NCBI RefSeq assembly: GCF_014204415.1
Contig: NZ_JACHLE010000001.1
Coordinates: 1,426,001-1,490,000, forward strand
DNA length: 64,000 nt
Direction: 5' to 3'
Source of the DNA: Chryseobacterium defluvii
GTDB taxonomy: Bacteria; Bacteroidota; Bacteroidia; Flavobacteriales; Weeksellaceae
The translations under genes were made by a program, and so were the position numbers. The notes below the pieces were generated by a model. That model was not told the DNA's origin. It saw only the letters and a list, made by a program, of their open reading frames with translations, and did not search any database. This document shows positions 14,469 through 29,228 of the stretch, in pieces; the first letter of the stretch is position 1; each line of letters starts with the position of its first letter.

Positions 14469-14490
14469 AACTAATAGCGACTAAGCACAC

Positions 14491-16332
14491 ATGAGCCTAA
14501 TTTCGAAAAACGATCTAATTAAAGCTTCCGGCTTAAGTAAAATCGGATTCCTAAAGAATCCGGTAGCATCTGCTGTGATGAGCATTGCTAAAATAAATGA
14601 AGTAAACAGACTGTATGATACACTAAAAGATAAGGAAGGCAAAGACTTTTTCGACTCATTTGTAAGGGAAAGAAATTTAAGTTACATCGCTTTTGAAGAG
14701 GATCTGGCCAAGATTCCCAAAACAGGACCTTTTATTCTTGTTTCCAATCATCCGCTGGGTGCCATTGACGGGATCTTAATGTGCAAAATATTAACGGAAG
14801 TACGCCCGGATTTTAAGGTAATGGGAAATTTTCTCCTGGAAAAAATAAAACCCATGGAACCCTACGTTATTTCCGTGAATCCTTTTGAAGGCAGAAAAGA
14901 GGCGTACAACAGTTCCTCCGGGATGCGCGAAACTTTAAAACATCTTCAAGAGGGAGGCTGCGTGGGAATTTTCCCGGCAGGGGAAGTTTCCAACAAAAAT
15001 AATCTTTACGGGGAAATTTTAGATAAAGAATGGGAAAAACCTGCCCTTAAACTTATCAGAATGGCAAAAGTGCCGGTAGTTCCCATGTATTTCCATGCAA
15101 AAAACAGCCGCTTGTTTTATCAGGTAGCCAAACTTCATGCGAATTTACAGACCCTTATGCTTCCTGCAGAGATGATGAATGAAAGGGAAAAACCGATCCG
15201 CATCAGGATAGGAAGACCTATTGCGGTGAAAGCAATGGATGATATGGAAACCATTGAAGAACTGGGAGAATTCCTGAAACGTAAGGTTTATATGATGAAA
15301 TCTTATTATGAGAAAAGAAAATCTCTCGCCCAGACCATTAACCTTCAGAATTTATCTATAAAATTCCCTTTGCTTAGAGAGGAAAATATTGTCCAGAATA
15401 TTATTGATGAAACTCCGAAAGAAGATATCCTTAAAGATATCAGCAAACTGAAAGGTACTGATAAGATGCTTTTTAGCAATGGGAATTATGAAATATACTT
15501 TACTTCCTACGAAGAGATCCCTTCTGTAATGAGGGAAATCGGAAGGCAAAGGGAACTTACATTCCGTGCCGTAGGAGAAGGAAGCAATCTTCCTTTTGAC
15601 CTTGACGAGTATGATAAGCATTACCATCATCTTTTCCTTTGGGATAATGCCGAAGAAAAACTTGTAGGTGCCTACAGAATGGCTTTGGGTAAGGAGGTGA
15701 TGAAAAAATCCGGGATCAAAGGATTCTATACGAGTTCTCTTTTTGAATTTGAGCAGGACATCCACCCTTTCTTTAAAAAAGTAATCGAAATGGGCAGGGC
15801 CTATATCTGCCAGGAATACCAGCAGAAACCTCTTCCGCTTTTTCTTTTGTGGAGAGGGATCGTACATGTATGCTTAAGAAATCCTGATCACAAATTCCTG
15901 ATGGGTGGTGTGAGCATCTCCAATAAGTTTTCCGAGTTCTCAAAATCACTCATGATTGAGTTTATGCGTTCGAATTATTATGACTCGGCAGTGGCCCAAT
16001 ATATCACTCCTAAAAATGAGTACAAGGTAAAGCTCAGAGACCGTGATAAAAACCTGTTCTTTGATGAAATGGAATCTGATCTTAATAAACTGGACAAGAT
16101 CATTGATGATCTGGAGCCTGAATTAAGGCTGCCTGTCCTGATCAAAAAATACATCAAGCAAAACGCAAGGGTTATAGCCTTTAATGTAGACCCTAATTTC
16201 AATGATGCAATAGACGGGCTGATGTACATCCGCATCAGTGACCTTCCTGAAAGCACCATCAAGCCTGTTTTAGAGGAAATGAGCGAGCAGATCAGGAGTG
16301 AACAGGAAAATAATCCGGCTGAAAATCAATAA
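14491..16332 (+). CDS. olsF: OlsF-like bifunctional acyltransferase (PlsC-like plus GNAT N-acyltransferase)
   Basis: 613 residues in two domains. Residues about 60-280 are a PlsC-like O-acyltransferase with SNHPLGAIDG (note H-x5-D rather than the usual H-x4-D) and the FPxG motif in GIFPAGEVS. Residues about 320-530 resemble the OlsB/hemolysin GNAT N-acyltransferase fold, with LTFRAVGEGSNLP and a Gly-rich LMGGVSISN segment. This is the architecture of OlsF, the ornithine-lipid synthase described from Serratia and Flavobacterium, which acylates the amino acid on N and then on the hydroxyl. Related Bacteroidota enzymes make glycine lipids, so the head group is uncertain. It acts at the inner membrane face. 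Confidence 0.8.
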   Translation: MSLISKNDLIKASGLSKIGFLKNPVASAVMSIAKINEVNRLYDTLKDKEGKDFFDSFVRERNLSYIAFEEDLAKIPKTGPFILVSNHPLGAIDGILMCKILTEVRPDFKVMGNFLLEKIKPMEPYVISVNPFEGRKEAYNSSSGMRETLKHLQEGGCVGIFPAGEVSNKNNLYGEILDKEWEKPALKLIRMAKVPVVPMYFHAKNSRLFYQVAKLHANLQTLMLPAEMMNEREKPIRIRIGRPIAVKAMDDMETIEELGEFLKRKVYMMKSYYEKRKSLAQTINLQNLSIKFPLLREENIVQNIIDETPKEDILKDISKLKGTDKMLFSNGNYEIYFTSYEEIPSVMREIGRQRELTFRAVGEGSNLPFDLDEYDKHYHHLFLWDNAEEKLVGAYRMALGKEVMKKSGIKGFYTSSLFEFEQDIHPFFKKVIEMGRAYICQEYQQKPLPLFLLWRGIVHVCLRNPDHKFLMGGVSISNKFSEFSKSLMIEFMRSNYYDSAVAQYITPKNEYKVKLRDRDKNLFFDEMESDLNKLDKIIDDLEPELRLPVLIKKYIKQNARVIAFNVDPNFNDAIDGLMYIRISDLPESTIKPVLEEMSEQIRSEQENNPAENQ

Positions 16333-16390
16333 GTTTTATCCCGTCCTTAAAAAAGATTTGTTAATACTTGCTTCATATGCGAAAAGTTAC

Positions 16391-16398
16391 TACTTTTG
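16391..16398 (+). promoter_or_regulatory. Promoter of the first tRNA-Phe gene
   Basis: TACTTTTG matches the -7 consensus TAnnTTTG, and a TTG -33 element lies at 16368-16370 with 20-nt spacing, as expected for Bacteroidetes sigma factor promoters. Confidence 0.65.
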
Positions 16399-16434
16399 CA
16401 TCACTTTAAAACAACGAAGTAAAAAACAACAAAT

Positions 16435-16507
16435 GGTTTCTTAGCTCAGTTGGTAGAGCAATGGATTGAAAATCCATGTGTCCCTGGTTCGATTCCTGGA
16501 GAAACCA
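16435..16507 (+). tRNA. tRNA-Phe (GAA), copy 1
   Basis: 73 nt. Acceptor arms GGTTTCT and AGAAACC pair fully. The D arm, the anticodon stem (TGGAT/ATCCA) with GAA in the loop, and the TTCGATT T loop are all present. The T stem CCTGG/CCTGG has a central T-T mismatch, which is also in copy 2. The CCA end is not encoded. Confidence 0.97.
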
Positions 16508-16510
16508 CTA

Positions 16511-16540
16511 AAACCACCTTAAATAGGTGGTTTTTATTTT
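16511..16540 (+). terminator. Terminator after tRNA-Phe copy 1
   Basis: AAACCACC and GGTGGTTT form an 8-bp stem around a TTAAATA loop and are followed by TTTATTTT. It separates the two tRNA copies, so each has its own unit. Confidence 0.85.
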
Positions 16541-16569
16541 AAAGCTTGCAAAATATAGTATAATTTTAT

Positions 16570-16577
16570 TATTTTTG
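16570..16577 (+). promoter_or_regulatory. Candidate -7 element of the second tRNA-Phe gene
   Basis: TATTTTTG, an exact TAnnTTTG match, lies 35 bases before the tRNA. The same arrangement precedes copy 1, and about 30 bases of 5' flank are also similar between copies. Confidence 0.5.
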
Positions 16578-16611
16578 CCTTACCTCGAAACGATGAAGTA
16601 AAAACAACAAT

Positions 16612-16684
16612 GGTTTCTTAGCTCAGTTGGTAGAGCAATGGATTGAAAATCCATGTGTCCCTGGTTCGATTCCTGGAGAAACCA
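16612..16684 (+). tRNA. tRNA-Phe (GAA), copy 2
   Basis: Identical in all 73 nt to the copy 177 bases upstream. The similar 5' flanks (GAAGTAAAAA...ACAACAA) indicate a tandem duplication. The sequence downstream is a degraded integrase, so this copy probably marks an old integration point. Confidence 0.97.
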
Positions 16685-16883
16685 CAAAAGTTAAACACAA
16701 TTTAACTTAATCAATCAAGAAAATTCCTTTTAAACAATGTTTAGAAGGAATTTTTGTTTTAATGATGTTTAATAGTGTTTTATCAAATTTAGTCCTTTCT
16801 TGTCCCTTTATGTTGTCCCCGAGGACAATTTAAAAAGATTTTTGGTGGTATCACAGACTGATTTTGGAACAAAAAATAGAACT

Positions 16884-17274
16884 ATGAACATTGCATTTTT
16901 TTAAAAGAGCCTAAAAAGGCAACCGAAACAATGGTATATGTTTCAGCACCGTAAAAGGTCAGAGACTAAAACGCTCCACAGGGGTAAAAGTAAAACCCTC
17001 ACAATGGACAGGGACGAAAGTGAGACAACTCGCTCCCGAAGCAGTAACTAAAAATCTTAAAATCGAAAATACTATCAAAAGCCTAAAAGAGAAGAAAAAG
17101 GGAATCCTAATAGTCTTTGATAAATTTATAGAAGTTAGAAGACAAGAAAAGTCTGAAAATATAGTAAAGACCTATAGGACTTGTAAAAACCATTTAGAAA
17201 AATTTTCAAATGAAACAAAATTTAATTTATCGTTTGAAAATATCCCCTCAATTTTCATGATGAACTATAGTTAA
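16884..17274 (+). pseudogene. Broken tyrosine recombinase (integrase), N-terminal part only
   Basis: From the ATG at 16884 the reading must shift twice. MNIAFF runs into LKEPKKATETMVYVSAP after a 1-nt slip in a T run. The frame changes again to VKGQRLKRSTGVKVKPSQW and then stays open to the TAA at 17274. Together these make the arm-binding and SAM-like N-terminal domains of a Bacteroidetes phage-type integrase. The catalytic domain with its R-H-R-Y residues is missing. Its place directly 3' of a tRNA gene is the usual site for such integrases. It cannot be functional. Confidence 0.8.
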
Positions 17275-17313
17275 ATCATTATAATTCGTCATATAATTTT
17301 TATACTTTTAAAT

Positions 17314-17672
17314 ATGACGTGTTCAATAGACTTTCGCAAACAACTATTTAATATTAAGCATCAGGATGATCTTACTTTTGAAGAAACCAGTGAGAGATTT
17401 GGGGTTCCCATAAGAACATTGTTTCGATGGCAAAAGTGTATTGAACCTAAAATAAAACGTAACAAACCTTCAACAAAATTGGATATGGAAGCCTTACGAA
17501 AAGATGTTGAACAAAATCCTGACCGTTACCAATATGAGCGAGCCAGGAAATCTGGTGTAGGTTAGAGTAAGATATTTTATGCTCTGAAGCGTTTGGGGAT
17601 TAGTAATAAAAAACATCATTCTATCCCAAAGCCAATGAACTTCTCAAGGCTTATCTTTCAACTCAAATTGTA
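17314..17672 (+). pseudogene. Remnant of an IS630-type transposase (HTH part)
   Basis: ATG at 17314 opens 83 residues resembling the N-terminal helix-turn-helix of IS630 transposases: SIDFRKQLFNIKHQ, then ERFGVPIRTLFRWQK, then IEPKIKRNKPSTKLDMEA. A TAG at 17563 interrupts the match; after it the same frame continues SKIFYALKRLGISNKK. A further shift gives KTSFYPKANELLKAYLSTQI. The DDE catalytic half is absent. With the neighbouring integrase fragment this is decayed mobile DNA. No flanking terminal repeats were recognised. Confidence 0.75.
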
Positions 17673-17807
17673 AGCTACCCAATTTTGTCCCCATTCAAAA
17701 AGAATGAATTTACACTAAAATGCATCTACATTGTATGAGTTTCTAAGTTATTTATAGACATATGTATGTTACTTCTCTTTTAACCATTATATTAGTCAAA
17801 AAATCAA

Positions 17808-19490
17808 ATGAGAAAAAGAATATTTATATTAATACTATTCATGGTACTTACCTCTGTATCGTCTCAGACTAAAAAAGAAACAGAGCTCTATAAAAGTAAG
17901 TTCTTCCTATATCAAAAAATAGGGGTTGACAGTGCATTATCCTATTTAAATAAGGTTTTTTCTTCAAAGGATAATATTGACCTGGCATTTGCCTATACTG
18001 CAAAGAGATACCTGCTGACTATTACCGGTAAAAACCAGAATGACAAAAACTATCTTTTAAATATTAATTCTCTTTTAAAAAAAATTCCAGAAACCGAAGA
18101 AAATTATACAGACCTGTCCCATATCTATAATATTTTAGGGAATACGGATATGGCCAATCAACTGCCAAATGATGCATTAGGAAAGTTTATTAAAGCCGAT
18201 CTTTTTGCACAAAAAAATAATGATATTAAGCAGCACATAAAAATTAAAGGAAATATTGCTTACATAAAACTAAATGTAAAACAAACTGACGAGGCTATAT
18301 CGGAAATCCATGAAGTCCTCCGGCTTTTAAAAGAGAACAGGCACTTATATGAAAAAGAAAGCTTCGAAATTATTTATAATAATACGTTTTCAAACTTGGG
18401 ACACTTATATTCTGATAAATTCATTTCTGATGTTCAAAAAAATAAAAAGTACGCTGACAGTGCCCTACAGAACTTTTATCAATTGCTTAACATCACAAAA
18501 GATAAAAAATTGTTGGCCGGTACTTATCTGAAGCTGGGCACATTAAATAATAAAAAAAGAAATTATTCAAAAGCATCAGAATATTATGACAAAGGCATGA
18601 GTATCTATGATTCCCTGCAGCTTAAAGATGATATTCTGAATCTTAAATACAATATTGCAGTAAATCACTATGAGTCCAATGACTACAGAAGATCAAAAGC
18701 TATCTTCCTTGCATTATCCCGTTCGATGGAAAAAGATTCTATCATGAATATGGATTACATATTTGCACAGGATTATCTTTCCAAAATTTATACAAAAGAA
18801 CAAAAGACAGATTCTGCAGAATACTATAATAATAAATTCTTTGATCTGTATCAGGAAAACTCTGAGATAGAGAAAAAAAATATTGCTGATCTTTACAGGG
18901 CGATCAATTCCAAAAACCTGAACGATGAAATCCATAAAAACACAGATCTTCTAAAAACCCGTTTATTTTTAATAATTATATTGGTTTTGCTGGCCGGGTG
19001 CATCACAACCTATTTAATGTATCAGCTACGCAAAAAGAAAAAGACAGAGCAACGGCTGAATGAAAGATTATCCCAGATCAAAAGCAATAGTGTAGATACG
19101 GGCAGCCCTGTTAACAAGAGCTTTACAATCAGCAACGAAAAAGAAGCTGAAATTATGACCAAACTGCAGGAGCTGGAAGAAAAAAAACATTATCTGAAAA
19201 AAGAGTATAATCAGGTATATGTTGCCAAAAAACTTGGAACCAATACTACTTACCTATCACAGGCCATCAATAAGTATATGAAAAAATCTTTCAGCGAATA
19301 TAGTAATGAATTAAAGATCAACTATATCCTAAAGGAGTTATCAGAAAATAAAAAAATAAGAAGTTATACGACTCAGGCTCTGGCTGATATGATAGGGTAT
19401 AAAAGTGGGATTTCTTTCTCAAGGACATTTAAAGAAAAAACGGGTGTTACCCCGTTTCAGTATATCGAAAAATTAAATGCTGAAGAATAA
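17808..19490 (+). CDS. Membrane-anchored TPR-AraC transcriptional regulator
   Basis: 560 residues. An N-terminal signal-like segment (FILILFMVLTSVSSQ) leads into about 350 residues of helical TPR-like repeats that would lie outside the inner membrane. One transmembrane helix (LFLIIILVLLAGCITTYLMY, about 386-405) is followed by a linker and an AraC-type DNA-binding domain at the C-terminus (VAKKLGTNTTYLSQAINKYM and IGYKSGISFSRTFKEKTGVT). This layout is common in Chryseobacterium regulators next to small-peptide genes and suggests sensing outside the membrane coupled to transcription inside. It is probably the local regulator of the peptide cluster that follows; that role is inferred from position. 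Confidence 0.85.
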   Translation: MRKRIFILILFMVLTSVSSQTKKETELYKSKFFLYQKIGVDSALSYLNKVFSSKDNIDLAFAYTAKRYLLTITGKNQNDKNYLLNINSLLKKIPETEENYTDLSHIYNILGNTDMANQLPNDALGKFIKADLFAQKNNDIKQHIKIKGNIAYIKLNVKQTDEAISEIHEVLRLLKENRHLYEKESFEIIYNNTFSNLGHLYSDKFISDVQKNKKYADSALQNFYQLLNITKDKKLLAGTYLKLGTLNNKKRNYSKASEYYDKGMSIYDSLQLKDDILNLKYNIAVNHYESNDYRRSKAIFLALSRSMEKDSIMNMDYIFAQDYLSKIYTKEQKTDSAEYYNNKFFDLYQENSEIEKKNIADLYRAINSKNLNDEIHKNTDLLKTRLFLIIILVLLAGCITTYLMYQLRKKKKTEQRLNERLSQIKSNSVDTGSPVNKSFTISNEKEAEIMTKLQELEEKKHYLKKEYNQVYVAKKLGTNTTYLSQAINKYMKKSFSEYSNELKINYILKELSENKKIRSYTTQALADMIGYKSGISFSRTFKEKTGVTPFQYIEKLNAEE

Positions 19491-19633
19491 TCCTGCATAC
19501 TTTGCAGACCTTTCACCATATCCAGGCTATTATCAGCTCCCTTCCACTCCCCTGCCAATTTTTCATTTTCCTTTCCTATTTACCCCTTTAATAACTAAAC
19601 AGGTATGCTTCTAACGCATTCATGATACAATAA

Positions 19634-19831
19634 TTATAATAAAATATGCTCCGGGCAAATGTCGATACTTGGAAGCGAAAGTTTTTGCCTCTCAATACAA
19701 TCCACACTTATAGTCCCGTTACCCGATCCGTTATTAGTTCCTTTAGGTTTAGTCTCTCTCTCTCCACCCATAACCTTCGATTGCTCGCTTCTTGTTAATT
19801 TTTTCAATGCTGAGTTAAATTGTGCTTTCAT
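19634..19831 (-). CDS. Double-glycine leader peptide precursor (RiPP/bacteriocin-like)
   Basis: 65 residues. The leader LKKLTRSEQSKVMGG (residues about 9-23) is the Bacteroidetes form of the GG leader recognised by C39-type peptidase transporters. The 42-residue core is rich in Lys, Asn, Gly and Ser and includes a GTNNGSGNG stretch and two Cys. It is on the opposite strand to the regulator and to the mini-gene array. No C39 transporter is present in the window, so processing and export would need genes elsewhere. The family resemblance (TIGR04149-like natural product precursors) is from motif only. Confidence 0.7.
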   Translation of the reverse strand: MKAQFNSALKKLTRSEQSKVMGGERETKPKGTNNGSGNGTISVDCIERQKLSLPSIDICPEHILL

Positions 19832-19881
19832 ATTAAAGTTTTCTTTTTTGTCAATTTTTAATTCTGATTTATAATTAATGT

Positions 19882-20007
19882 TTATACAGTTTTTATATTT
19901 CCGCCGTTATTAGTACCTCCTCTGTTTTCATCTATTAAATATTGTTTTTTATAATAACCCTTAATAGCTTCTCTCAACAGTTTTTCGAATCTGATCTTTG
20001 CTCTCAT
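19882..20007 (-). CDS. Small basic peptide related to the GG-leader peptide
   Basis: Using the ATG at 20005-20007 gives 41 residues, MRAKIRFEKLLREAIKGYYK at the start and a Gly/Asn-rich end RGGTNNGGN. A longer frame from 20085 adds only low-complexity aromatic residues, so the internal ATG is preferred. The TNNG-GN tail resembles the core of the peptide 50 bp downstream on the same strand, which suggests a diverged second precursor. It has no GG leader. Evidence is limited to this tail match and the tandem position. Confidence 0.4.
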   Translation of the reverse strand: MRAKIRFEKLLREAIKGYYKKQYLIDENRGGTNNGGNIKTV

Positions 20008-20362
20008 TGCATGTATTTTTTGGTTTCTATAAAAATAGAAATTAATATTTCCGGAAAAGTAAAATAGAAATCCGGAATAAAACAAAATGAATTAAACAAT
20101 TAATAATCAATAATATACATTCTAATTTACAGTAAATTTTTTATAAAAAATTATACCTCTTTTCATAAAAAGTTTGTTCAAAAGCTTTTTTATCGGCTCA
20201 AATTAAATAAGATTTGTACCAATTATTCTTGTAAGGAATTTTATGTAAAAGTTTACACTATCTAAAATCCTTTTACCACAGATCCTGGCTAATATATTAA
20301 GCATAAGGAATAAACCGATGCCTGAAAAAGAAGGTCAAATGTTTAATTATAAAATCATTCCA
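20008..20362. promoter_or_regulatory. Divergent regulatory region upstream of the mini-gene array
   Basis: 355 very AT-rich bases between the minus-strand peptides and the first precursor gene. TAAGATTTG near 20208-20216 is an imperfect -7 candidate (one extra base). The last about 90 bases (from about 20290) resemble the sequences upstream of the second and fourth mini-genes, so they belong to the duplicated unit. No further gene is seen. Confidence 0.4.
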
Positions 20363-20473
20363 ATGAAAAAAGAAAATCAATTACTGGAGAACTTCCAGGT
20401 GGAAGAACTTGAAAAAAGGTATGAGATGGCATGGGTCACAGTGAGGCCTATAGATCCGCATCTTCCGAACTAA
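20363..20473 (+). CDS. Precursor peptide 1 (FQVEELEKRYEM leader, AWV core)
   Basis: 36 residues, too short for ordinary gene finding. The leader MKKENQLLENFQVEELEKR is followed by YEMAW and a variable tail VTVRPIDPHLPN without Cys. It is the first of six tandem genes with the same leader. An in-frame ATG 48 bases upstream (20315) exists, but the homologous upstream sequence of copy 2 has a stop right after the matching ATG, so the MKK start is chosen. It is probably the substrate of the cyclase/RRE-protease pair downstream. Confidence 0.8.
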   Translation: MKKENQLLENFQVEELEKRYEMAWVTVRPIDPHLPN

Positions 20474-20542
20474 TTCATTATCAAATGAGGAATATATCGA
20501 TGCCTTAAAAGAAGATCATGTAAAACAATAAAAACGACTACA

Positions 20543-20650
20543 ATGAAAAAACAAAATCAATTACTGGAAAACTTTCAGGTAGAAGAACTTGAAAAAAGGT
20601 ATGAAATGGCATGGGTAGAATATGTGCCTTGCCCTCAACAGCCTAATTAA
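20543..20650 (+). CDS. Precursor peptide 2 (AWVEYVPCP core)
   Basis: 35 residues. The leader differs from peptide 1 by one residue (MKKQNQ). The tail after the conserved Trp is VEYVPCPQQPN with one Cys. The region upstream repeats the flank of gene 1, including an ATGCC that is followed immediately by TAA, which shows that the upstream ATG is not the start in this family. The near-identical leader codons in copies 1, 2 and 6 point to recent duplication. Confidence 0.8.
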   Translation: MKKQNQLLENFQVEELEKRYEMAWVEYVPCPQQPN

Positions 20651-20667
20651 TCTTAAACCTTATTCAA

Positions 20668-20772
20668 ATGAGTACCCAACAAATGATAACAGATTTTCAG
20701 GTAGAAGAACTTGAAAAAAGATTCGAGATGGGCTGGGTGGAGTATAATCCATGCGAGTGCCAGCCGAAATAG
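20668..20772 (+). CDS. Precursor peptide 3 (GWVEYNPCECQPK core)
   Basis: 34 residues beginning MSTQQMITDFQVEELEKRF, so the first eight residues differ from copies 1 and 2 while FQVEELEKR is retained. The tail after EMGW is VEYNPCECQPK with two Cys. Only 17 bases separate it from the preceding gene, so it lacks the duplicated upstream region and must be read from the shared transcript. Confidence 0.78.
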   Translation: MSTQQMITDFQVEELEKRFEMGWVEYNPCECQPK

Positions 20773-20874
20773 CAATATCCGGCACGGATAATTCAGGACT
20801 TATATATTCCATTAAGAAAAGAAGGACAACCTATGCCGGTTAAAAAATTATTTAATCACAAAATTTTTATCATC

Positions 20875-21015
20875 ATGAAAAAAGAAAACCAAATTCTGGA
20901 TGTCTTTTATGTGGAAGAGCTTGAACAGAGATTTGAAATGGGCTGGTATACAGTGAGCAACGGCACTACGGAATGTAATATGCTTACAGGGGAATGCTAT
21001 ACAAATGCACAGTGA
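20875..21015 (+). CDS. Precursor peptide 4 (longest core)
   Basis: 46 residues from the ATG at 20875 (MKKENQILDVFYVEELEQRF). The leader shows Gln to Tyr and Lys to Gln changes. The 22-residue tail after EMGW is the longest of the set (YTVSNGTTECNMLTGECYTN and AQ) and has two Cys. A longer frame from 20833 exists, but by comparison with copy 2 it is upstream flank rather than protein. Confidence 0.78.
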   Translation: MKKENQILDVFYVEELEQRFEMGWYTVSNGTTECNMLTGECYTNAQ

Positions 21016-21089
21016 ATTATTCCAGAAACAAACCCGTATCAGGGTAAAACTTAAGATAAAAATATTTGTTTAACATTAATTCTAAAAAA

Positions 21090-21185
21090 ATGAATACAAA
21101 AAATGAACTATTAGATGTTTTTCAGGTTGATGAACTTGAAAAAAGATATGAAATGAATATTTGGGATTGTGTCCAGCCATGTTAA
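21090..21185 (+). CDS. Precursor peptide 5 (NIWDCVQPC core)
   Basis: 31 residues, the shortest of the six. The leader MNTKNELLDVFQVDELEKRY keeps the pattern with one Glu to Asp change. The residue before Trp is expanded (EMNIW rather than EMAW), and the tail is only DCVQPC with two Cys. Retention of Trp in the shortest and most divergent copy argues that it is the modified or recognised residue. Confidence 0.76.
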   Translation: MNTKNELLDVFQVDELEKRYEMNIWDCVQPC

Positions 21186-21258
21186 TTAAAAATTACATAA
21201 ATGATCCAAATTCATATTATTCCGAATAATAAATCATCAAATTAAAATAGTATTTACT

Positions 21259-21363
21259 ATGAAAAAAAGCAATCAATTACTAGAAAATTTTCAGGTAGAA
21301 GAACTTGAAAAAAGGTACGAAATGGGTGGCTGGCAACTAGAAATAGACGAACTCCCAAAGTAA
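21259..21363 (+). CDS. Precursor peptide 6 (GGWQLEIDELPK core)
   Basis: 34 residues. The leader MKKSNQLLENFQVEELEKR is almost identical to copies 1 and 2. The motif reads EMGGW, so a Gly-Gly precedes the Trp, and the tail QLEIDELPK is acidic and lacks Cys. It is the last copy before the hairpin at 21371 and the cyclase gene. Confidence 0.78.
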   Translation: MKKSNQLLENFQVEELEKRYEMGGWQLEIDELPK

Positions 21364-21370
21364 TGAGATC

Positions 21371-21405
21371 AGATTATATCCCGTAAGATATAATCTTGAT
21401 TTTTA
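21371..21405 (+). terminator. Hairpin with T-tail between precursors and enzymes (attenuator candidate)
   Basis: AGATTATATC (21371-21380) and GATATAATCT (21387-21396) form a perfect 10-bp stem with a CCGTAA loop, followed by TGATTTTTA. The stem is AT-rich and so a weak terminator. It could let the short precursors be transcribed in excess over the enzyme genes. Confidence 0.5.
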
Positions 21406-21437
21406 TAAACATATATATCACCACAATCACACTTAAT

Positions 21438-23324
21438 ATGATCAATACAGACCAGATAAAAAAAACAGACAAATCACCGGAATATTATCAGTACTATCCC
21501 CGGCTGTTCAGTGCTTATTATCCGAAAATCAATACCTCCTTTATAGAAGACCTTTCCAAAGCAGGATACATCTATTATCAGTCTGTATTATTTACAGATT
21601 CATTGATTGATGACAAAGATTTTTCAAAAATACCTTACATCCAGATCTATCAGGAAGAAACCATAAAAATCCTTACTTCCATCTATGGCAGAGAAAGCAT
21701 TTTCTGGAAATATTGGGGTAACAGGCGAAATGAATATTTTGAAGCTGTTGCCATTGAAAAAGGGCTATACATAAAAAATGAAATTGATATATCCGTTTAT
21801 GAAAACCTGGCAGATAAAAAATCAGCATTTGGAAAAGTGGCGATAGACTGCCTGCATGTTCTTGACAATGAATCCGGAACAGATGTATATGAAAAACTCA
21901 TTACATCTCACCACTATTTTTCGGTAGGGTTTCAATTGTATGATGACATAAAAGATTTTAAGGAAGATTTTACTAAAGATCAGTTCAACTGGGTGGTTTA
22001 TGAATTATCCAAAAAAGTAAACTTCAAAGACTACGATAATAATGTGCTGATCCTCAACAAACTTATCTATATAGAAGAAATTGCCCAGAATATTCTTTCA
22101 AGATCCATAGAAAATTTCAAAAAATCAATTTCTATTCTTGAAACGCTAAACATAGAAAGTGAATGGCTCAAAATAAACCGGGACATGCAAAAAACCATTG
22201 AAAGCTATTTGGATGTCACCGAAGGATATATAAAAACTTTAGAGAAAAAATTTGAAATAAAAAATTCAGGAAACCCTGCGTCAGGCTTCTTCAATTATTC
22301 CTCTGTTGAAAATGACAGTATAAAAAAAGGACTTCAATATATTGAAAATGACAGTAAAGAAAATTTTGCGGAACTCAAACACTATATGTATCTCAGTGAA
22401 CGGGAAGACTTTAACAATACCTCTCAGATCCATGCCTCCGATACCTTTCAAAGAGCAATGCTTAATGACTGTCTATGGGATGTTACCCGGAATTATAACT
22501 TAGACACGCAAATATTTTTTCATGCAGAATGTGATTACCTTGCCAACAGAACCAATAAAGATGAAGTGGGCGGATGGGCTTATTTCCCGACTGTTAAAGA
22601 AATTGCAGCGGATATAGACGATCTGGGGCAAATCATTCAGCTATTTATAAAATGTAACCGGCCGGATCTTATAGAAAATCTTTGTACAAAGCCTATCCTG
22701 ACTGCTTTGGAAAACAGAACGGATGCCGACGGAGGAATAGAAACCTGGATCATTCCCAGATATTCCCAAACGGATATTCAGAAACTACAGGAGTACTTTA
22801 ACGTAACAAAATGGGGAAAAGGACCTGATGTTGAAGTGGTTGCCAATTTTGTATATGCCCTGCAAAAATTACAGGATGATAAATACCGGGACTATATAGA
22901 AAATAGTATAAAATACATCCTGTCTCATCAGCACGAAAAAGGATATTGGGAAAGCAGATGGTATTATGGCAATTATTATGGCACCTATGTCTGCCTAAGG
23001 CTATTAAAAGAATTTGGCGATGTATATAAAGAAGACATCAATGAAGCTATAGATTATATTATAAATAGCCAACACGATGACGGCGGATTCTCTGTTTCAC
23101 CGGAAGCATCTACCGATCCTTTGAATACTGCTTTTGCATTACTTTCATTAAAATTGTGCTTCCCAAAAGACCATCTACCGGTTAAAAAAGCCGAAAACTA
23201 CCTGATAAATTCCCAGGCAGAATCCGGATTCTGGAAAGAGGTAGATTTCATTAAACCTAAAGCACAGGAACCTTATAAAAGTAAAACAATAACAACCGCT
23301 TTTGCACTGAAAGCCCTATGCTAG
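21438..23324 (+). CDS. Fused class I isoprenoid synthase / class II terpene cyclase-like protein
   Basis: 628 residues from the ATG at 21438; an earlier TTG at 21396 falls in the hairpin and is unlikely. Residues about 1-280 are all-helical with two Asp-rich motifs of class I isoprenoid synthases: DSLIDD (54-59), like the DxxxD of squalene/phytoene synthases, and FQLYDDIKDFKED (165-177). Residues about 330-628 resemble the alpha/alpha toroid of squalene-hopene cyclases: GGW (378-380) followed by DIDD (392-395), matching the catalytic DxDD, and QW-like repeats QHEKGYWESRW (498-508), QHDDGGF (545-551) and QAESGFW (593-599). Both active-site motif sets look intact. Position after six Trp-containing precursors suggests peptide prenylation and cyclisation. 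A stand-alone terpene synthase is the alternative. Confidence 0.75.
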   Translation: MINTDQIKKTDKSPEYYQYYPRLFSAYYPKINTSFIEDLSKAGYIYYQSVLFTDSLIDDKDFSKIPYIQIYQEETIKILTSIYGRESIFWKYWGNRRNEYFEAVAIEKGLYIKNEIDISVYENLADKKSAFGKVAIDCLHVLDNESGTDVYEKLITSHHYFSVGFQLYDDIKDFKEDFTKDQFNWVVYELSKKVNFKDYDNNVLILNKLIYIEEIAQNILSRSIENFKKSISILETLNIESEWLKINRDMQKTIESYLDVTEGYIKTLEKKFEIKNSGNPASGFFNYSSVENDSIKKGLQYIENDSKENFAELKHYMYLSEREDFNNTSQIHASDTFQRAMLNDCLWDVTRNYNLDTQIFFHAECDYLANRTNKDEVGGWAYFPTVKEIAADIDDLGQIIQLFIKCNRPDLIENLCTKPILTALENRTDADGGIETWIIPRYSQTDIQKLQEYFNVTKWGKGPDVEVVANFVYALQKLQDDKYRDYIENSIKYILSHQHEKGYWESRWYYGNYYGTYVCLRLLKEFGDVYKEDINEAIDYIINSQHDDGGFSVSPEASTDPLNTAFALLSLKLCFPKDHLPVKKAENYLINSQAESGFWKEVDFIKPKAQEPYKSKTITTAFALKALC

Positions 23325-24505
23325 AAGAAAAAACAAATAATAGGATCCCTGAACTTTCAGATAACCTGCACTTTAACAAATTATCTGAAAACGATTACAT
23401 ACTGTCCAATTCAGACCACAGGCATTATGTAAAAATCAATACGGAGGTGTATCACCTCCTGTCACTCATTAACGGTAAAAAATGCATAGAGGAAATCACT
23501 GATGAATATAATAAAAGCTATAATGCTGCACTGGATGCCGAAAAAGTATATCTTCTCCTGTATGAAAAACTGGTCGTGTACGGCATTCTAAAAGGGCATA
23601 ATGAGAAAATAAAGGAATATGAAAAACCATCTTATCTCACTTTAAGCTTCATTATCATCAATGAAAAATTACTTTCCCGGATTGTAAAAAAATTCTATTT
23701 CCTTTTTCATAAAAAGAAGGCATTTTATATCCTGTTTTTTTGCTTATTGGTGATGTCTGTCATTTTATATTTCAATTTTGACCTTTACAAATCATTCCAG
23801 TTAAACCAGAGCCTGATCTATTTCTTTATGATCATGACGATCAGCGTTACATTTCATGAGATCGGGCACGCCACTTCTGCCAGTTTCTTCGGGGCAAAAC
23901 ACGGCGGGATAGGCGGGGGATTTTATCTTCTGACACCAGTGTATTTTGCAGATGTAACAGATATCTGGAGATTGAATAAAACCCAACGGATCGTTGTCAA
24001 CTTATCCGGAATGTATTTTGAACTGGTGATATGCACATTATTTTCCATAATTTCTCTCATTTTTAACAATTATACCTTACTGATCATTTCTGTCATCGTT
24101 TGCCTTAAAACATTGTTTAACCTAAACCCTTTCCTGAGAAGTGACGGTTATTGGGTGGTATCAGACCTTACCAATAAACCAAATTTACTTTACCATTCAT
24201 CCGAAAAACTGAAAGATATTTTCAGGCTGATCTTTAAAGGAAAAAAAACGCAGTGGAAACGTACAGATTATATTTTATTATTATATGGGATGATAAGTTA
24301 TTCCTTCATAATCTTTTTTCTGTATTATGTATTAATTAAAAATCCTAATTCCATCATTCATTTTCCGGAAAACCTATATGGTTTTTTTGAAAATCTCTTT
24401 AAAAAAGATTCCCATATTTCACTCGTACAGTATGGAGAACTCATAGTCCCTATCATGTTTTTTTTATTATTATACAGGTTCATAAAATCCCTTTTAAAAA
24501 GATAG
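23318..24505 (+). CDS. PqqD-like (RRE) domain fused to M50 membrane metalloprotease
   Basis: 395 residues. Residues about 10-95 look like a PqqD-type winged helix, the leader-binding RRE of many RiPP enzymes (HYVKINTEVYHLLSLINGKK and following). The membrane part has about six hydrophobic segments. The zinc motif is HEIGH (180-184) and the second M50 motif is NPFLRSDGYW with Asp276 (270-279). Site-2-type proteases cut within or near the membrane, and PqqD-M50 fusions are known in other peptide clusters. The ATG overlaps the cyclase stop by 7 bp, so the two are translationally coupled. It probably removes the FQVEELEKR leader; that is inference. Confidence 0.85.
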   Translation: MLEEKTNNRIPELSDNLHFNKLSENDYILSNSDHRHYVKINTEVYHLLSLINGKKCIEEITDEYNKSYNAALDAEKVYLLLYEKLVVYGILKGHNEKIKEYEKPSYLTLSFIIINEKLLSRIVKKFYFLFHKKKAFYILFFCLLVMSVILYFNFDLYKSFQLNQSLIYFFMIMTISVTFHEIGHATSASFFGAKHGGIGGGFYLLTPVYFADVTDIWRLNKTQRIVVNLSGMYFELVICTLFSIISLIFNNYTLLIISVIVCLKTLFNLNPFLRSDGYWVVSDLTNKPNLLYHSSEKLKDIFRLIFKGKKTQWKRTDYILLLYGMISYSFIIFFLYYVLIKNPNSIIHFPENLYGFFENLFKKDSHISLVQYGELIVPIMFFLLLYRFIKSLLKR

Positions 24506-24596
24506 ATCATGGAGAAAACAATTTTCTTTATCCATAAAGCTTTTAGTATTAACACTATTTAGCACTTTCTTTATAATATTTCAAATTAAAATTAAT

Positions 24597-24604
24597 TATC
24601 TTCG
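24597..24604 (+). promoter_or_regulatory. Candidate -7 element for the thioredoxin-fold operon
   Basis: TATCTTCG differs from TAnnTTTG at one base and lies 21 bases before the ATG at 24626. Confidence 0.4.
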
Positions 24605-24625
24605 CCTATTAATTATCATTTGGAA

Positions 24626-25801
24626 ATGAAGAAGATTATCTCTGGATTATTTATTTTTTACTCCGTTATCATATGGGCGCAGGAAGCCATTGCCTTTCAG
24701 GATGTGCCGTTCAAAGACCTTATTGCCAAAGCTAAAAAAGAAAAGAAAATAGTTTTCATAGATGCCTACACTACATGGTGCGGGCCCTGCAAAATGATGG
24801 AAAAAAATGTTTTCACCAAAAAATCAGTTGGGGATTACTTTAATGCCAATTTCATCAATGGCCGGTTTGATATGGAAAAAGGAGAAGGAAGAGAAATTGC
24901 TGCCAGATACGGGGTACGTTCCTATCCTACCTATCTTTTCCTGAATGGTGACGGGGAATTGGTCTCACAGAATTATGGATATATGGAAGAAAGCATGTTC
25001 CTGTCAATGGCACAGGACGTCAACTCTCCCAATAATAAAAAAGGCTCTCTCAAAGAACGTTTTGCACAAGGCGAAAAAGACCCGGAATTCCTGATCAATG
25101 TAATGAAGCTGAATTCTTCTTCAGATTTTGATTTTGCCAAAAAAGCTTCCGAAAGATATTTCGAAAACAAAAAGAATACTGATGAGCTTTCAAAAGAAGA
25201 TGTAGGATATCTATTATATTTCTTAAAATCTACCGAAGATCCTAATTACAAAGTTTTCGCATCCAGAAAATCAGAGATCATCAAGTACTTTCCGGAAGAA
25301 ACCTATAAGCAATTTGATGACCAGATAAAGCTTTCCAAAATAGTTGAGGCATCCATAGACGAAAAGAACAAAAAGATCGACGAAGAATATTTCCTGAAAA
25401 ATGCAGTACCCTTGGTAGGAGAACATGAAGCAATGGCCAAACTGAACCAGACCAAGCTGGGCTATTATGAGCAGAACAGTAACTTTGCAGAATATGAAAA
25501 GGCAGCTTTGGACTATTATAAAAACCCGGATTCCTTTGAACCCAACGAATTGTTGAAAGCCGCATGGATATTTTCTGACAGTATAAAAAACAAAGCCTCT
25601 TTAAAAAAAGCCGTTGAATGGGCAGAAAAATCAGTAATGAGAGGCGAAACTTCTGAGAACACCTATATTCTGGCAAAACTCTATTTCCTTACGGGGAATA
25701 ATGAAATGGCTAAAACATATGCTGAAATGTCTAAAAATTTAGCCGTTGGAGCTAAAAAAGATGCTACCCTGTCAGAAGGATTGTTAAAGCAAATTAAATA
25801 G
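24626..25801 (+). CDS. Secreted thioredoxin-fold protein with helical C-terminal domain
   Basis: 391 residues from the ATG at 24626. A signal peptide (ISGLFIFYSVIIWAQ) is followed by a thioredoxin domain with the active site WCGPC (51-55) and a cis-Pro segment RSYPTYLF. The remaining 240 residues are Lys/Glu-rich helices of TPR-like character. It probably acts as a periplasmic thiol-disulfide protein. Two further genes follow at 6 and 2 bases, forming a three-gene operon. It lies just beyond the peptide cluster but has its own promoter-like element, so a link to the cluster is possible but not supported. Confidence 0.85.
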   Translation: MKKIISGLFIFYSVIIWAQEAIAFQDVPFKDLIAKAKKEKKIVFIDAYTTWCGPCKMMEKNVFTKKSVGDYFNANFINGRFDMEKGEGREIAARYGVRSYPTYLFLNGDGELVSQNYGYMEESMFLSMAQDVNSPNNKKGSLKERFAQGEKDPEFLINVMKLNSSSDFDFAKKASERYFENKKNTDELSKEDVGYLLYFLKSTEDPNYKVFASRKSEIIKYFPEETYKQFDDQIKLSKIVEASIDEKNKKIDEEYFLKNAVPLVGEHEAMAKLNQTKLGYYEQNSNFAEYEKAALDYYKNPDSFEPNELLKAAWIFSDSIKNKASLKKAVEWAEKSVMRGETSENTYILAKLYFLTGNNEMAKTYAEMSKNLAVGAKKDATLSEGLLKQIK

Positions 25802-25807
25802 AACCCG

Positions 25808-26392
25808 ATGTTGAAATATAAATTCCTTACCGGTTTTCTTACCTTATTTCTATTAGGGAGTCTAAAGGCACAGGAGCAGGAAAAAAGCCTGTATGTAAAA
25901 GCTAACGCATTATTTATTCCCATCGGAGTTTTCAATGCCGGTCTGGAATATCAGCTAAACTCCAAATATACTTTGCAGGGGGATGTATTTATTTCGCCGT
26001 GGAAATCCTTTGCCGGAAATCATGCCCAGATATATATGGGGCACCTGGAAGGGAGGTACTATTTTAAAGAAGCCTTTAAACATTGGTATATAGGGATCAA
26101 CGGCGGGTTAGGATTATTTGACCTTACCAAATGGAACTACAGAGGAACAGAAAAATTCCAGCGCGGATTCAATGTTATGGCCGGAGCTACCGTAGGCTAC
26201 CAGTTCCAATGGAAAGAAAGATGGAATATTGATGTTTACTTAGGAGGTGGTACTTCACAGGGTTTTTATCATGGTTACGAGAGCGTTCCTCCGGACAGCT
26301 TTATCAGATATGACGGTGCGGAAGGCTGGAACAGAAGCGGGGAACTTATTCCGTACAGAGGAGGTATAATGATTTCTTATAAACTAAAATAA
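25808..26392 (+). CDS. DUF3575-like outer-membrane beta-barrel protein
   Basis: 194 residues. A signal peptide (LTLFLLGSLKAQ) is followed by alternating strands with Gly and aromatic residues (NALFIPIGVFNAGLEYQL, YIGINGGLGLF, NIDVYLGGG), ending in a C-terminal strand GGIMISYKLK. The pattern fits DUF3575 proteins, predicted small outer-membrane barrels of Bacteroidota. It starts 6 bases after the thioredoxin-fold gene. The function of the family is unknown. Confidence 0.75.
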   Translation: MLKYKFLTGFLTLFLLGSLKAQEQEKSLYVKANALFIPIGVFNAGLEYQLNSKYTLQGDVFISPWKSFAGNHAQIYMGHLEGRYYFKEAFKHWYIGINGGLGLFDLTKWNYRGTEKFQRGFNVMAGATVGYQFQWKERWNIDVYLGGGTSQGFYHGYESVPPDSFIRYDGAEGWNRSGELIPYRGGIMISYKLK

Positions 26393-26394
26393 GT

Positions 26395-26601
26395 ATGAAG
26401 CTGTTTGGGAAAAACCATATCATCATTTCAGTGATTACCTTTGTGATCCTTTTTTCAATGAACTACATAGGAAACGATCTTCCGGATAAACTGCAAAGAG
26501 CCTTATTAACTGCTTTTTGTGGTGTTATCGGCTTATCGATCGGACTTTTCATCATGAATAAAGGGAAAAATGACAAGAATCCTCCCCAAAACTTTGATTA
26601 A
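26395..26601 (+). CDS. Small two-helix membrane protein
   Basis: 68 residues with two hydrophobic segments (IIISVITFVILFSM, residues 8-21, and ALLTAFCGVIGLSIGLFIM, about 36-54) joined by a polar loop, ending in a charged tail. It starts 2 bases after the preceding stop, so it belongs to the same operon. Its stop overlaps the convergent NamZ-like gene by 4 bp. No family recognised. Confidence 0.6.
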   Translation: MKLFGKNHIIISVITFVILFSMNYIGNDLPDKLQRALLTAFCGVIGLSIGLFIMNKGKNDKNPPQNFD

Positions 26602-27794
26602 TCCTCATAAATAACATATCGGGTCCTGATTTTTTCAAACTTATCAAGATCCGGTTTCCATGAAGCTTTGATCTCAGGAATTGATTTTCCTGCAATGATC
26701 TGTTTTCTCAGCTCATCATTTCCTACCAACGTATCAAACCATAAGTTCTTAAGGAAGAAGTCCTGATCAGGATTATTATAGTTCTTATAAGCCTTGATCA
26801 CCCACTCCAGATTCAGTTCACGCAGATCTGTCGCGTAATTGGATAAATTTTCACCATAGCATAATTTCCCGTTTAAGAACGGGTCTTTAGCCCCGAAATT
26901 CGGTTTTGGAGTAAACTGGTAAGGAAGCCCCTTCGTCCAGGGTGAACCATATACCTGAAAAGGAATATCCGTTCCTCTTCCAGCAGATACCTGCGTGCCT
27001 TCAAAAAAACATAAACTCGGATACAGGTTGATCGCTTTATCATTAGGTAAGTTCGGAGAAGGCTTATCTGAGATCGGGTAACGCTGCTTTTTATGATAGT
27101 TCTGCATCGGGATCAGGGTGTACTTTGCCTGTATCCCGTTCTTCAGCCATTTTTCACCATTCACCATTTTCCCGTATTCGCCGATTGTGAGTCCGTACAC
27201 TACAGGAACCTCATGCATTCCCACAAAGCTGGTCCATTTTTTCCTTAAAACCGGTCCGTCTGTATAACCGTCATGCGGATTCGGACGGTCAAGAACCATT
27301 ACTTCCACGGCATTTTCAGCCCCGGCTTCCATTAAGTAAGTCAATGTGGAAATATAGGTATAGAATCTCACTCCTACATCCTGAATATCAAAAAGAACAA
27401 TATCAATACCTTTCAACTGTTCCTGTGAAGGTTTTTTATTATTACCATACAGAGAAACAATAGGAATCCCTGTTTTGGCATCTACCCCGTTTTTCACGGT
27501 TTCCCCGGCATCAGCATTCCCTCTGAAACCATGTTCCGGAGCGAAAATTGCCTTTATTTTAATATTATTCTTAACCAGAAAGTCTACAAGATGAGTCCTG
27601 TTCTTCATAAGGCCGGTCTGGTTGGTAACTACACCAATCGTTTTGTCCTTCAGCAAAGGAAGATACAGTTCCGGGCGGTCTGCTCCGGTTTTGAAACAGT
27701 CTTTATCTTGGGTCTGAGAATAATATTGATTGAATACTCCTAAAAAAATTAGGCAAATAAAAAGTAAATTTTTAATTTTGAAATCTAAATTCAT
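26598..27794 (-). CDS. NamZ-like exo-beta-N-acetylmuramidase (DUF1343)
   Basis: 398 residues using the ATG at 27792-27794, which gives a good signal peptide (NLLFICLIFLGVFNQYYS). A longer upstream frame to 27992 runs antisense to the permease and is rejected. Family motifs include GVVTNQTGL, FAPEHGFRG, FDIQDVGVRFYTYISTL and VLDRPNPHDG. Characterised members, such as NamZ of Bacillus and a Tannerella enzyme, release terminal MurNAc from peptidoglycan fragments. Here it would act in the periplasm or outside in cell-wall recycling. Its start codon lies only 4 bases from the probable start of the divergent permease. Confidence 0.86.
   Translation of the reverse strand: MNLDFKIKNLLFICLIFLGVFNQYYSQTQDKDCFKTGADRPELYLPLLKDKTIGVVTNQTGLMKNRTHLVDFLVKNNIKIKAIFAPEHGFRGNADAGETVKNGVDAKTGIPIVSLYGNNKKPSQEQLKGIDIVLFDIQDVGVRFYTYISTLTYLMEAGAENAVEVMVLDRPNPHDGYTDGPVLRKKWTSFVGMHEVPVVYGLTIGEYGKMVNGEKWLKNGIQAKYTLIPMQNYHKKQRYPISDKPSPNLPNDKAINLYPSLCFFEGTQVSAGRGTDIPFQVYGSPWTKGLPYQFTPKPNFGAKDPFLNGKLCYGENLSNYATDLRELNLEWVIKAYKNYNNPDQDFFLKNLWFDTLVGNDELRKQIIAGKSIPEIKASWKPDLDKFEKIRTRYVIYED
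27773..27780 (+). promoter_or_regulatory. Candidate -7 element for the permease gene
   Basis: TAATTTTG matches TAnnTTTG. It lies downstream of the first possible ATG (27730) but 18 bases before a TTG codon at 27799, so it favours the TTG as the start. It falls inside the first codons of the divergent NamZ-like gene. Confidence 0.45.
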
Positions 27795-27798
27795 AAGC

Positions 27799-29028
27799 TT
27801 GAAATTTCCTTTATATTTCTCTAGAAAAATAGCATTTTCCAAAGATAACAAAAATAACCTTTCACGGGTTATTATCTTCATAGGCAGGCTTTCTGTGGCT
27901 TTAGGGATTATTGTTTCACTCATCACGGTAGCTACCGGATTCGGGTCAAAAAAAGCGATCAAAGAAAGGCTGGCAGATTTCAGCGGGCACATTACCGTAA
28001 AATCTACAAGATCAAACTCCTCCTATAATACTTCCGTTCTTGATAAACAAGGATTGAATATCCAGAAAATAAAGGAGCTTCCGGATGTGGAAAGCACACA
28101 GAAATATGCCATGATCACAGGGATCATGAGGAACGAGCACAGCTTTGCCGGGATCATCTTCAAAGGGGTCGGAAAGGATTTTGACAGCCTTCGGTTTAAA
28201 AAGTTCCTTCTGGCAGGTACCTCCCCGAAAGTAACCGAAATTGGCTACTATAACGGGGTTACCATTTCTCAGAAAATAGCCAATGACCTTCATTTAAAAG
28301 TAAAGGACAGCATCGTTACCGTATTTTCAAAAGCCGATCAAAAGCCAATCTACCGGAAGTTTGAAGTCGTAGGGATCTATAAAACGGATATCAAGATGAT
28401 TGATGACCAGTTTGTGATCGGAGGAATCAACCATGTAAGAAAAATTCAGGATATGAAACCTGACGAAGTGGGCGGTATCGATATTTTCCTGAAAAATGTA
28501 AATGATATCGACAAAGATTTTCCCGAGATCGAAAAACTGATCGGCTATAAGAACTATGCGGAAAAAGCCACTGAAAAATTCCCGCAGATCACCGACTGGA
28601 TAAGCATTTTTGACACCAATATTGCACTGATTATCATTATCATGTTAATTGTTGTGGTAATCAATATCATCATGGTTTTACTTATTCTTATCATCGAAAG
28701 GACCAATTCCATAGGATTATTAAAGACCCTGGGAGCCAGCAACTCACAGATCAGGGCTACATTTATCAATTATACCCTCATCATTATGATTCCCGGACTT
28801 TTGTATGGCAATGCTATAGGCCTGGGCCTGATCCTGATGCAGAAATTTTTCGGAATTATTAAACTTAACCCTGAAAACTACTATGTAAGTACGGTTCCTG
28901 TGGATTTAAATCCTATTGTAATTGTATCAATTTCACTAGGAATTCTTATCATTTCCGCATTCGCCCTGATCATTCCAAGTTATCTGATCAGTAAAATTTC
29001 TCCGGTTAAAGCAATTAAATATAACTAG
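27799..29028 (+). CDS. ABC transporter permease, LolC/LolE (FtsX-like) family
   Basis: About 409 residues from a TTG at 27799, which gives the family-like start KFPLYFSRKIAFS; an ATG at 27730 would add 23 Lys-rich residues. One membrane helix near the N-terminus (ALGIIVSLITVATGFG) is followed by a large periplasmic MacB-like domain of about 200 residues and three helices at the C-terminus (IALIIIIMLIVVVINIIMV, then LIIMIPGLLYGNAIGLGLIL, then IVIVSISLGILIISAFALII). This is the topology of LolC/E permeases that extract lipoproteins from the inner membrane. The ATPase partner is not in the window. Confidence 0.86.
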   Translation: MKFPLYFSRKIAFSKDNKNNLSRVIIFIGRLSVALGIIVSLITVATGFGSKKAIKERLADFSGHITVKSTRSNSSYNTSVLDKQGLNIQKIKELPDVESTQKYAMITGIMRNEHSFAGIIFKGVGKDFDSLRFKKFLLAGTSPKVTEIGYYNGVTISQKIANDLHLKVKDSIVTVFSKADQKPIYRKFEVVGIYKTDIKMIDDQFVIGGINHVRKIQDMKPDEVGGIDIFLKNVNDIDKDFPEIEKLIGYKNYAEKATEKFPQITDWISIFDTNIALIIIIMLIVVVINIIMVLLILIIERTNSIGLLKTLGASNSQIRATFINYTLIIMIPGLLYGNAIGLGLILMQKFFGIIKLNPENYYVSTVPVDLNPIVIVSISLGILIISAFALIIPSYLISKISPVKAIKYN

Positions 29029-29200
29029 TTTTAATAGTATTTCATACATCCGGACTGTCCTTCCATGTTTGCATCAGTGAGATTCCTGCGAAACGGCAAG
29101 AATATCGTTGATTGTTATGCATTGTATTCCGCATTCATAATAAGATCGTTCTATTTGAGCATTAATTCTTAATTATTCATTATTAATTACCCGAAAGCAC

Positions 29201-29208
29201 TATCTTTG
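29201..29208 (+). promoter_or_regulatory. Candidate -7 element for the cysteine synthase-like gene
   Basis: TATCTTTG matches TAnnTTTG and lies 20 bases before the ATG at 29229. Confidence 0.55.
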
Positions 29209-29228
29209 CACCGCTTATAAAACCATTT

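Follow-up and report, generated by a model that had tools for sequence, protein, structure and literature searches.

What do six small peptide genes produce when they stand ahead of a single terpene-type enzyme? The question is raised by a cluster in a 64,000-nucleotide stretch of the Chryseobacterium defluvii genome (contig NZ_JACHLE010000001.1; this whole stretch is called the window below), in which the peptide genes are followed by genes for a fused enzyme and an M50 membrane metalloprotease (Table 1). We consider the following pathway probable, judging from sequence: the peptides are precursors of ribosomally synthesised and post-translationally modified peptides (RiPPs), the N-terminal isoprenyl-synthase-like domain of the enzyme would prenylate a tryptophan (Trp) just past their leader, the C-terminal DxDD domain would likely cyclise the Trp-bound prenyl chain, and the protease would take off the leader after prenylation and cyclisation, with a predicted cut close to where the conserved leader ends. 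An earlier note on this DNA had proposed this mechanism, which the comparisons below suggest is likely right.

The six tandem genes encode peptides of 31 to 46 amino acids that combine one leader, F-x-V-x-E-L-E-x-R-x-E-M, with divergent tails, as the earlier note had described. Mean pairwise identity among the six is 72% for the leaders and 34% for the tails. The last 18 leader codons hold 61 synonymous and 69 non-synonymous differences in 270 comparisons, and the tail codons, in which change is almost entirely non-synonymous, 11 synonymous and 145 non-synonymous differences in 172. Every peptide carries a Trp, located at EM plus two residues in peptides 1–4 and at EM plus three in peptides 5 and 6; cysteine (Cys) is present in peptides 2–5 and absent from peptides 1 and 6. 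A genome-wide search with a profile built including these six returned six precursor matches, all within the array. The number of precursors per one enzyme is what is unusual in the window locus, which holds the most among the loci examined, followed by L094 with four and L152 with three (L numbers denote collected loci). The general signs of a RiPP cluster are present: a conserved leader, a variable core, an adjoining maturation enzyme and protease, and retention of the set across lineages.

The fused enzyme bears the motifs of both its halves, comprising a first aspartate-rich motif (FARM; D54/D58), a second one (SARM; D169/D170, plus D173/D177) preceded by a glutamine (Gln; Q166), and a DxDD motif (D392/D394/D395), so that the class I and class II motifs which the earlier note had called intact are so. 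An alignment of 45 members shows no change at D54, D58, Q166, D169, D170, D177, D392 or D394, and D173 and D395 are conserved in at least 90% of it. A homologue search scored 7996 candidates and retained 265 at E ≤0.001; among the 120 homologues listed, the SARM pattern with its upstream Gln is found in 120 and the DxDD pattern in 118, and the Gln recurs in 38 of the 39 rows of a wider alignment. For the C-terminal part there are Pfam matches to squalene-hopene cyclase models (E 1e-16), and a PDB search with the family profile gave squalene-hopene cyclase at E 2e-24 and MstE at E 1.5e-6. The N-terminal part is divergent and matches polyprenyl_synt in 19 of the 45 homologues at E ≤0.01 (best 3e-6). 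Two standard polyprenyl synthases are encoded in the window genome and could supply the donor.

Such an enzyme has been published before. The passages on such enzymes in a 2026 review (PMC13290415, citing Hubrich et al. 2024, Chem 10:3224) describe ChrPC, a fusion in which a P domain resembling trans-isoprenyl diphosphate synthases (trans-IDS-like) uses C10–C20 donors to prenylate a ribosomal peptide at an internal Trp and a C domain cyclises the prenyl. They also present the Gln before SARM as common to trans-IDS-like peptide prenyltransferases and as a Trp-recognition feature. The window enzyme, compared with ChrPC by this description only, shows on sequence the same prenyltransferase–cyclase fusion with FARM, SARM and upstream Gln, and its predicted acceptor is an internal Trp, present in all six window precursors and in all 26 precursors of DxDD-fusion loci. 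It fits the description, so two statements of the earlier note, that this is a candidate new system and that the cluster falls outside known RiPP classes, are not supported, given ChrPC as described in those passages.

The same review passages name just one other enzyme of this sort, NctPC, which likewise joins a prenyltransferase to a cyclase, geranylgeranylates a Trp and cyclises the chain, and whose C domain is likened to MstE, also matched by the window family profile. The P domain of NctPC has the ABBA fold, however, whereas the N-terminal domain of the window enzyme matches polyprenyl synthases; in a Pfam scan of the 45 members the ABBA family is absent from the nine families listed, and an assignment to the NctPC type was rejected. 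ComQ, acting on ComX, and PalQ are isoprenyl-synthase-type enzymes that also prenylate a Trp of a ribosomal peptide (PMC13290415, PMC10853753, as far as their relevant passages go). PalQ is described there as requiring a C-terminal (or N-terminal) Trp, unlike the internal Trp of the window, and neither PalQ nor ComQ is described with a cyclase domain, which the window enzyme has. ComQ, named as an analogue in the earlier note, is a looser one because it is described as lacking the SARM (PMC10853753, in part) that is intact here; the stand-alone ComQ type (IPR033965) was rejected for a fusion with an intact SARM.

Peptides bearing cyclised terpenes bridge two natural-product worlds, and the distribution presented here indicates that enzymes of the trans-IDS-like type are found across Bacteroidota and Balneolota, in most cases next to a precursor and a protease, and can serve as many as six peptides. 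A literature search over titles and abstract beginnings, with most subscription journals uncovered, returned nothing on this locus, its leader, the precursor array or the cyclase-less sisters described below. The main texts of two genome-mining papers on RiPP recognition elements (RREs; PMC7470986, PMC12710340) hold none of the terms terpen-, squalene, prenyl, isopren-, M50 or Bacteroid-.

Could the fused protein instead be a bifunctional terpene synthase for a free terpenoid, with the peptides as unrelated neighbours? A class I-like domain joined to a class II domain does resemble known bifunctional terpene synthases. The surroundings of its homologues point the other way. A profile of the six window leaders, run against 9085 open reading frames (ORFs) of the collected loci, matched at E <0.05 solely in loci holding a family enzyme: apart from the window and from copies, these were 12 distinct loci, with several more distant ones missed. 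A second profile, whose count is partly circular in that its 31 precursors were chosen by eye from the same loci, places a precursor at 18 of 20 distinct DxDD-fusion loci, and an M50 protease is found at 19 of the 20, so that homologues occurring widely without such peptides, an outcome for which the earlier note had allowed, are not what is seen. One locus without a precursor, L018, lies on a contig that begins 76 bases before the enzyme, and the locus without a protease, L107, lies on one that ends 135 bases downstream.

A locus that had been taken more than once, as a shorter or a second cut, entered the count a single time. Left out of the 20 were three near-identical or broken copies of the block in L024, namely L110 (which lacks the 5′ part of that block and has no precursor), L108 and L032, and also L038, an internally deleted Capnocytophaga copy in which protease and precursor were not found. 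Five fusions without DxDD, counted apart, have a protease in four cases and a precursor in three, with six precursors that all contain Trp. The 43 control loci (159,057 bases) gave no leader match and no protease match; these loci were picked up through matches to toroid or synthase proteins of other kinds, and some overlap each other and most measure about 3.4 kb, which makes the control weaker than its number suggests. Leader, enzyme and protease occur together over Bacteroidota and Balneolota. This co-occurrence, the conservation of the leader and the ChrPC precedent led us to reject the free-terpenoid explanation, which we regard as very unlikely.

If the fused enzyme does prenylate the peptides, the likely acceptor is Trp, as the earlier note had proposed; this gains support from the presence of Trp after the leader in every precursor of the DxDD-fusion loci, where Cys is present in 10 of 26. 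The leader motif with a Trp after it also occurs in each of the 120 database precursors listed, which include three from the window, although the profile itself contained this Trp. That another core residue, Cys or tyrosine (Tyr), takes the prenyl is very unlikely in our estimation. It would suit window peptides 2–5 and the precursors of cyclase-less sister enzymes, of which 13 of 13 contain Cys and 2 of 13 Trp, but it has no Cys to offer in window peptides 1 and 6, and the characterised trans-IDS-like peptide prenyltransferases are all Trp-directed as far as the review passages describe them (PMC13290415).

A different doubt concerns the second half of the enzyme, which might be a substrate binder or a remnant, in which case the Trp would be prenylated and the chain would stay linear. 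The cyclase-less sisters, with the same layout of precursor and protease, indicate that the first domain can stand alone, and the canonical DxDD is missing in 5 of the 25 fusions of the tree set, which have DxDS or DxDT at that site. The Asp motifs, whose loss the earlier note had considered, are kept in the DxDD-fusion group, while DxDD is lost in more distant fusions. A 39-row tree built on the N-terminal domain places the window enzyme among DxDD fusions, in a clade of 13 rows with support 99/99. Another branch (100/98) has 13 of the 14 cyclase-less enzymes on one side, and the five fusions without DxDD do not group together. Conservation of D392, D394 and D395 over the 45 homologues argues for a working cyclase, and the C domain of ChrPC is reported as a prenyl cyclase in the review passages; we therefore hold a linear product to be unlikely. 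A mass gain on Trp, the readout suggested in the earlier note, cannot show cyclisation, because cyclisation leaves the mass unchanged.

The protease retains the motifs HEIGH and NPFLRSDGYW, and its zinc-site motifs are preserved in 38 of 38 sequences. It matches the NCBIfam models daptide_HExxH (8e-35, 120.6 bits) and YydH/LiaK (9e-20, 71.4 bits), which places it near the RiPP-associated HExxH membrane proteases MpaP and YydH/LiaK of the epipeptides, from which it differs in scoring under both equivalog cut-offs (300 and 225 bits, respectively); daptide_HExxH is matched by 21 of 21 aligned relatives at E ≤0.1. The passages seen of PMC10036551 call the daptide MpaP an RRE-dependent intramembrane peptidase and list MpaD transamination and MpaM methylation among the daptide enzymes. 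No other daptide or epipeptide enzyme gene was found between 20363 and 24505; a daptide cluster was rejected, the protease being the sole daptide-like gene. In the window's family (296 genomes) a protease match is found in 36 genomes, 14 with an enzyme match, 12 with a match to the cyclase-less query only and 10 with neither, so the protease is a more general part. Conversely, where a genome matched the enzyme the protease is present in 14 of 15 cases, the exception (G003) being cut by a contig end. The earlier note had described an overlapping gene for a PqqD-like domain fused to an M50 protease, of which the protease and an overlap of 7 bases with the enzyme gene stand, the PqqD-like part being less clear.

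Several observations weigh against the proposed pathway. The PqqD-like (RRE) region is weak in the window protease (TIGR03859, E 0.07); among relatives it is matched by TIGR03859 in 3 of 21 and by Pfam PqqD in 1 of 21, and in the PDB by a PQQ synthesis C/D chain at E 0.14. The window enzyme itself matches polyprenyl_synt only at E 0.0044, under the cut-off. The DxDD fusion of L107 has no precursor in the 4.1 kb upstream of it, and no exporter gene was found inside the window cluster. Finally, the cyclase-less sisters, with mostly Trp-free precursors, also keep the Gln upstream of SARM, so that this Gln alone is not proof of a Trp acceptor.

These sisters are isoprenyl-synthase-like enzymes with their own precursors and M50 protease (L092, L151–L162 and L101), present in the window's genus and family, that retain FARM, SARM and the upstream Gln. 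At 11 of their 15 loci there are 13 profile-matched precursors, whose leader ends in KLEERKEF and whose cores are rich in Cys, proline and glycine. The precursors of L156–L158 fall below the profile threshold and, like that of L159, end in GGGW; with profile-matched and sub-threshold precursors taken together, no Trp is seen at 9 of the 14 precursor-bearing loci. A Cys or Tyr acceptor is not reported for trans-IDS-like enzymes in the review passages (PMC13290415), and these cyclase-less, mostly Trp-free sisters are a more novel lead than the window locus. Tentatively, and with the odds somewhat against it, all these loci may form one superfamily built on an isoprenyl-synthase-like module, an RRE-type M50 protease and an ELExRxE leader, in which the chemistry has diversified: with a class II cyclase, polycyclic terpenes would be placed on Trp (the six window peptides then forming a small combinatorial library); with a radical S-adenosylmethionine (SAM) enzyme, a second modification would be added; and without the cyclase, Cys or Tyr would be prenylated. 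The window locus and its relatives provide natural sets for studying leader dependence, core tolerance and acceptor choice. As to what the product does, a membrane-active antagonist or a signal is our guess.

Further genes accompany the cluster in relatives. Isopentenyl diphosphate (IPP) isomerase adjoins L095, where it exceeds both cut-offs, and L020, where it narrowly passes that of TIGR02150 and falls short of that of PRK03759, and by resemblance L021. L020 also has, downstream, a peptide-exporter-type ATP-binding cassette protein (TIGR01193, E 6e-154, slightly under cut-off) and an HlyD protein. In L028 and L098 the genes upstream of the precursor include radical SAM/SPASM maturases, which exceed the cut-off of the SPASM model and which, by resemblance, are also found in L033, L035, L036 and L099; L096 has a cytochrome P450. 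A secreted protein of about 280–400 amino acids recurs between precursor and enzyme, with a CarboxypepD_reg-like domain in 5 of 7 tested, and one such protein had no match in the window genome, in a search made without a positive control. In L020, from a Symbiothrix genome, a protein-kinase-like protein (514-1734; PknB 1e-23, under cut-off) adjoins the IPP isomerase and precursors, and an ORF of L021 is similar to it by eye. L094 (6578-12178), from the window's genus, combines a fusion without DxDD with four glycine-rich precursors that have GSW after the leader.

Table 1 Features of the cluster and its surroundings in the window.
Feature	Position	Strand	Length	Remarks
Tandem tRNA-Phe genes	16435-16685			one border of the cluster interval
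Tyrosine integrase fragment	17020-17274			PF13102, 1e-5; between tRNA-Phe and cluster
IS630-type transposase fragment	17314-17565			PF01710, 2e-9; between tRNA-Phe and cluster
Tetratricopeptide repeat (TPR)/AraC-type regulator	17808-19490			HTH_18, 5e-11; upstream of array; possible regulator
ORF with double-glycine-type leader SEQSKVMGG	19634-19831	-	65 aa	upstream of array; bactofencin match non-significant (E 0.027)
Predicted precursor peptide 1	20363..20473	+	36 aa	second in-frame ATG at 20318
Predicted precursor peptide 2	20543..20650	+	35 aa
Predicted precursor peptide 3	20668..20772	+	34 aa
Predicted precursor peptide 4	20875..21015	+	46 aa
Predicted precursor peptide 5	21090..21185	+	31 aa
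Predicted precursor peptide 6	21259..21363	+	34 aa
RNA hairpin	21365..21403	+		between array and enzyme genes; perfect 10-base arms, U-rich 3′ side
Fused enzyme	21438..23324	+	628 aa	N-terminal isoprenyl-synthase-like and C-terminal class II terpene-cyclase domain
M50 membrane metalloprotease	23318..24505	+	395 aa	predicted leader peptidase; putative N-terminal PqqD-like (RRE) region
Thioredoxin-like gene	24626			other border of the cluster interval

The hairpin between array and enzyme (−14.3 kcal/mol, z −4.26, equally stable shuffles 0/200) is not among the predictions of a terminator scan and may be an attenuator favouring precursor over enzyme. A sigma-70 scan found 26 promoters against a mean of 24.1 in shuffles, i.e. 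no excess. A Bacteroidota-type promoter pattern gave 3 matches against 5.5 expected and none in the cluster. An Rfam scan of 14000-30000 returned two tRNA genes and nothing else.

The enzyme is sporadic in the window's family: even when weak matches to cyclase-less relatives are counted, 15 of 296 genomes have one, and these cover 7 of 33 genera. In a class-wide and a phylum-wide sample, each of 395 genomes, there were matches in 26, for the most part confined to the toroid half, and such weak cyclase-half matches were treated as controls rather than family members. A plasmid search returned 23 matching records, none spanning more than 80% of the enzyme; among the 20 listed, 19 match the C-terminal part only (residue 259 onward, several annotated as squalene-hopene cyclases) and one, from Hymenobacter, matches the N-terminal part at 20% identity.

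The interval between the tRNA-Phe genes and the thioredoxin-like gene measures 8.3 kb in the window. Among four relatives compared out of 30, it is empty in L165 and L166 and holds other genes in L163 and L164, and thus looks like an insertion hotspot. Elsewhere, a block of about 13.4 kb with a related cluster is shared at 99.87% identity between Epilithonimonas lactis and Chryseobacterium ureilyticum, and the same type of block is found in E. tenax at 99.84% over 12.9 kb (L024 775-14174, L027 775-14174, L026 176-13123). It carries the cyclase–protease–precursor cluster together with tyrosine recombinase/integrase, Toprim and relaxase genes and is an apparent mobile element common to two genera; its integrase has no clear relation to the window integrase fragment (E 0.003 over 47 residues). 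Other copies of the enzyme gene are broken by a 305 aa ORF insertion (L032, 8169-11098, a Chryseobacterium mucoviscidosis record), a two-frame split (L108, 8634-10555) and an internal deletion (L038, 10001-10938), from which we conclude that clusters decay in place.

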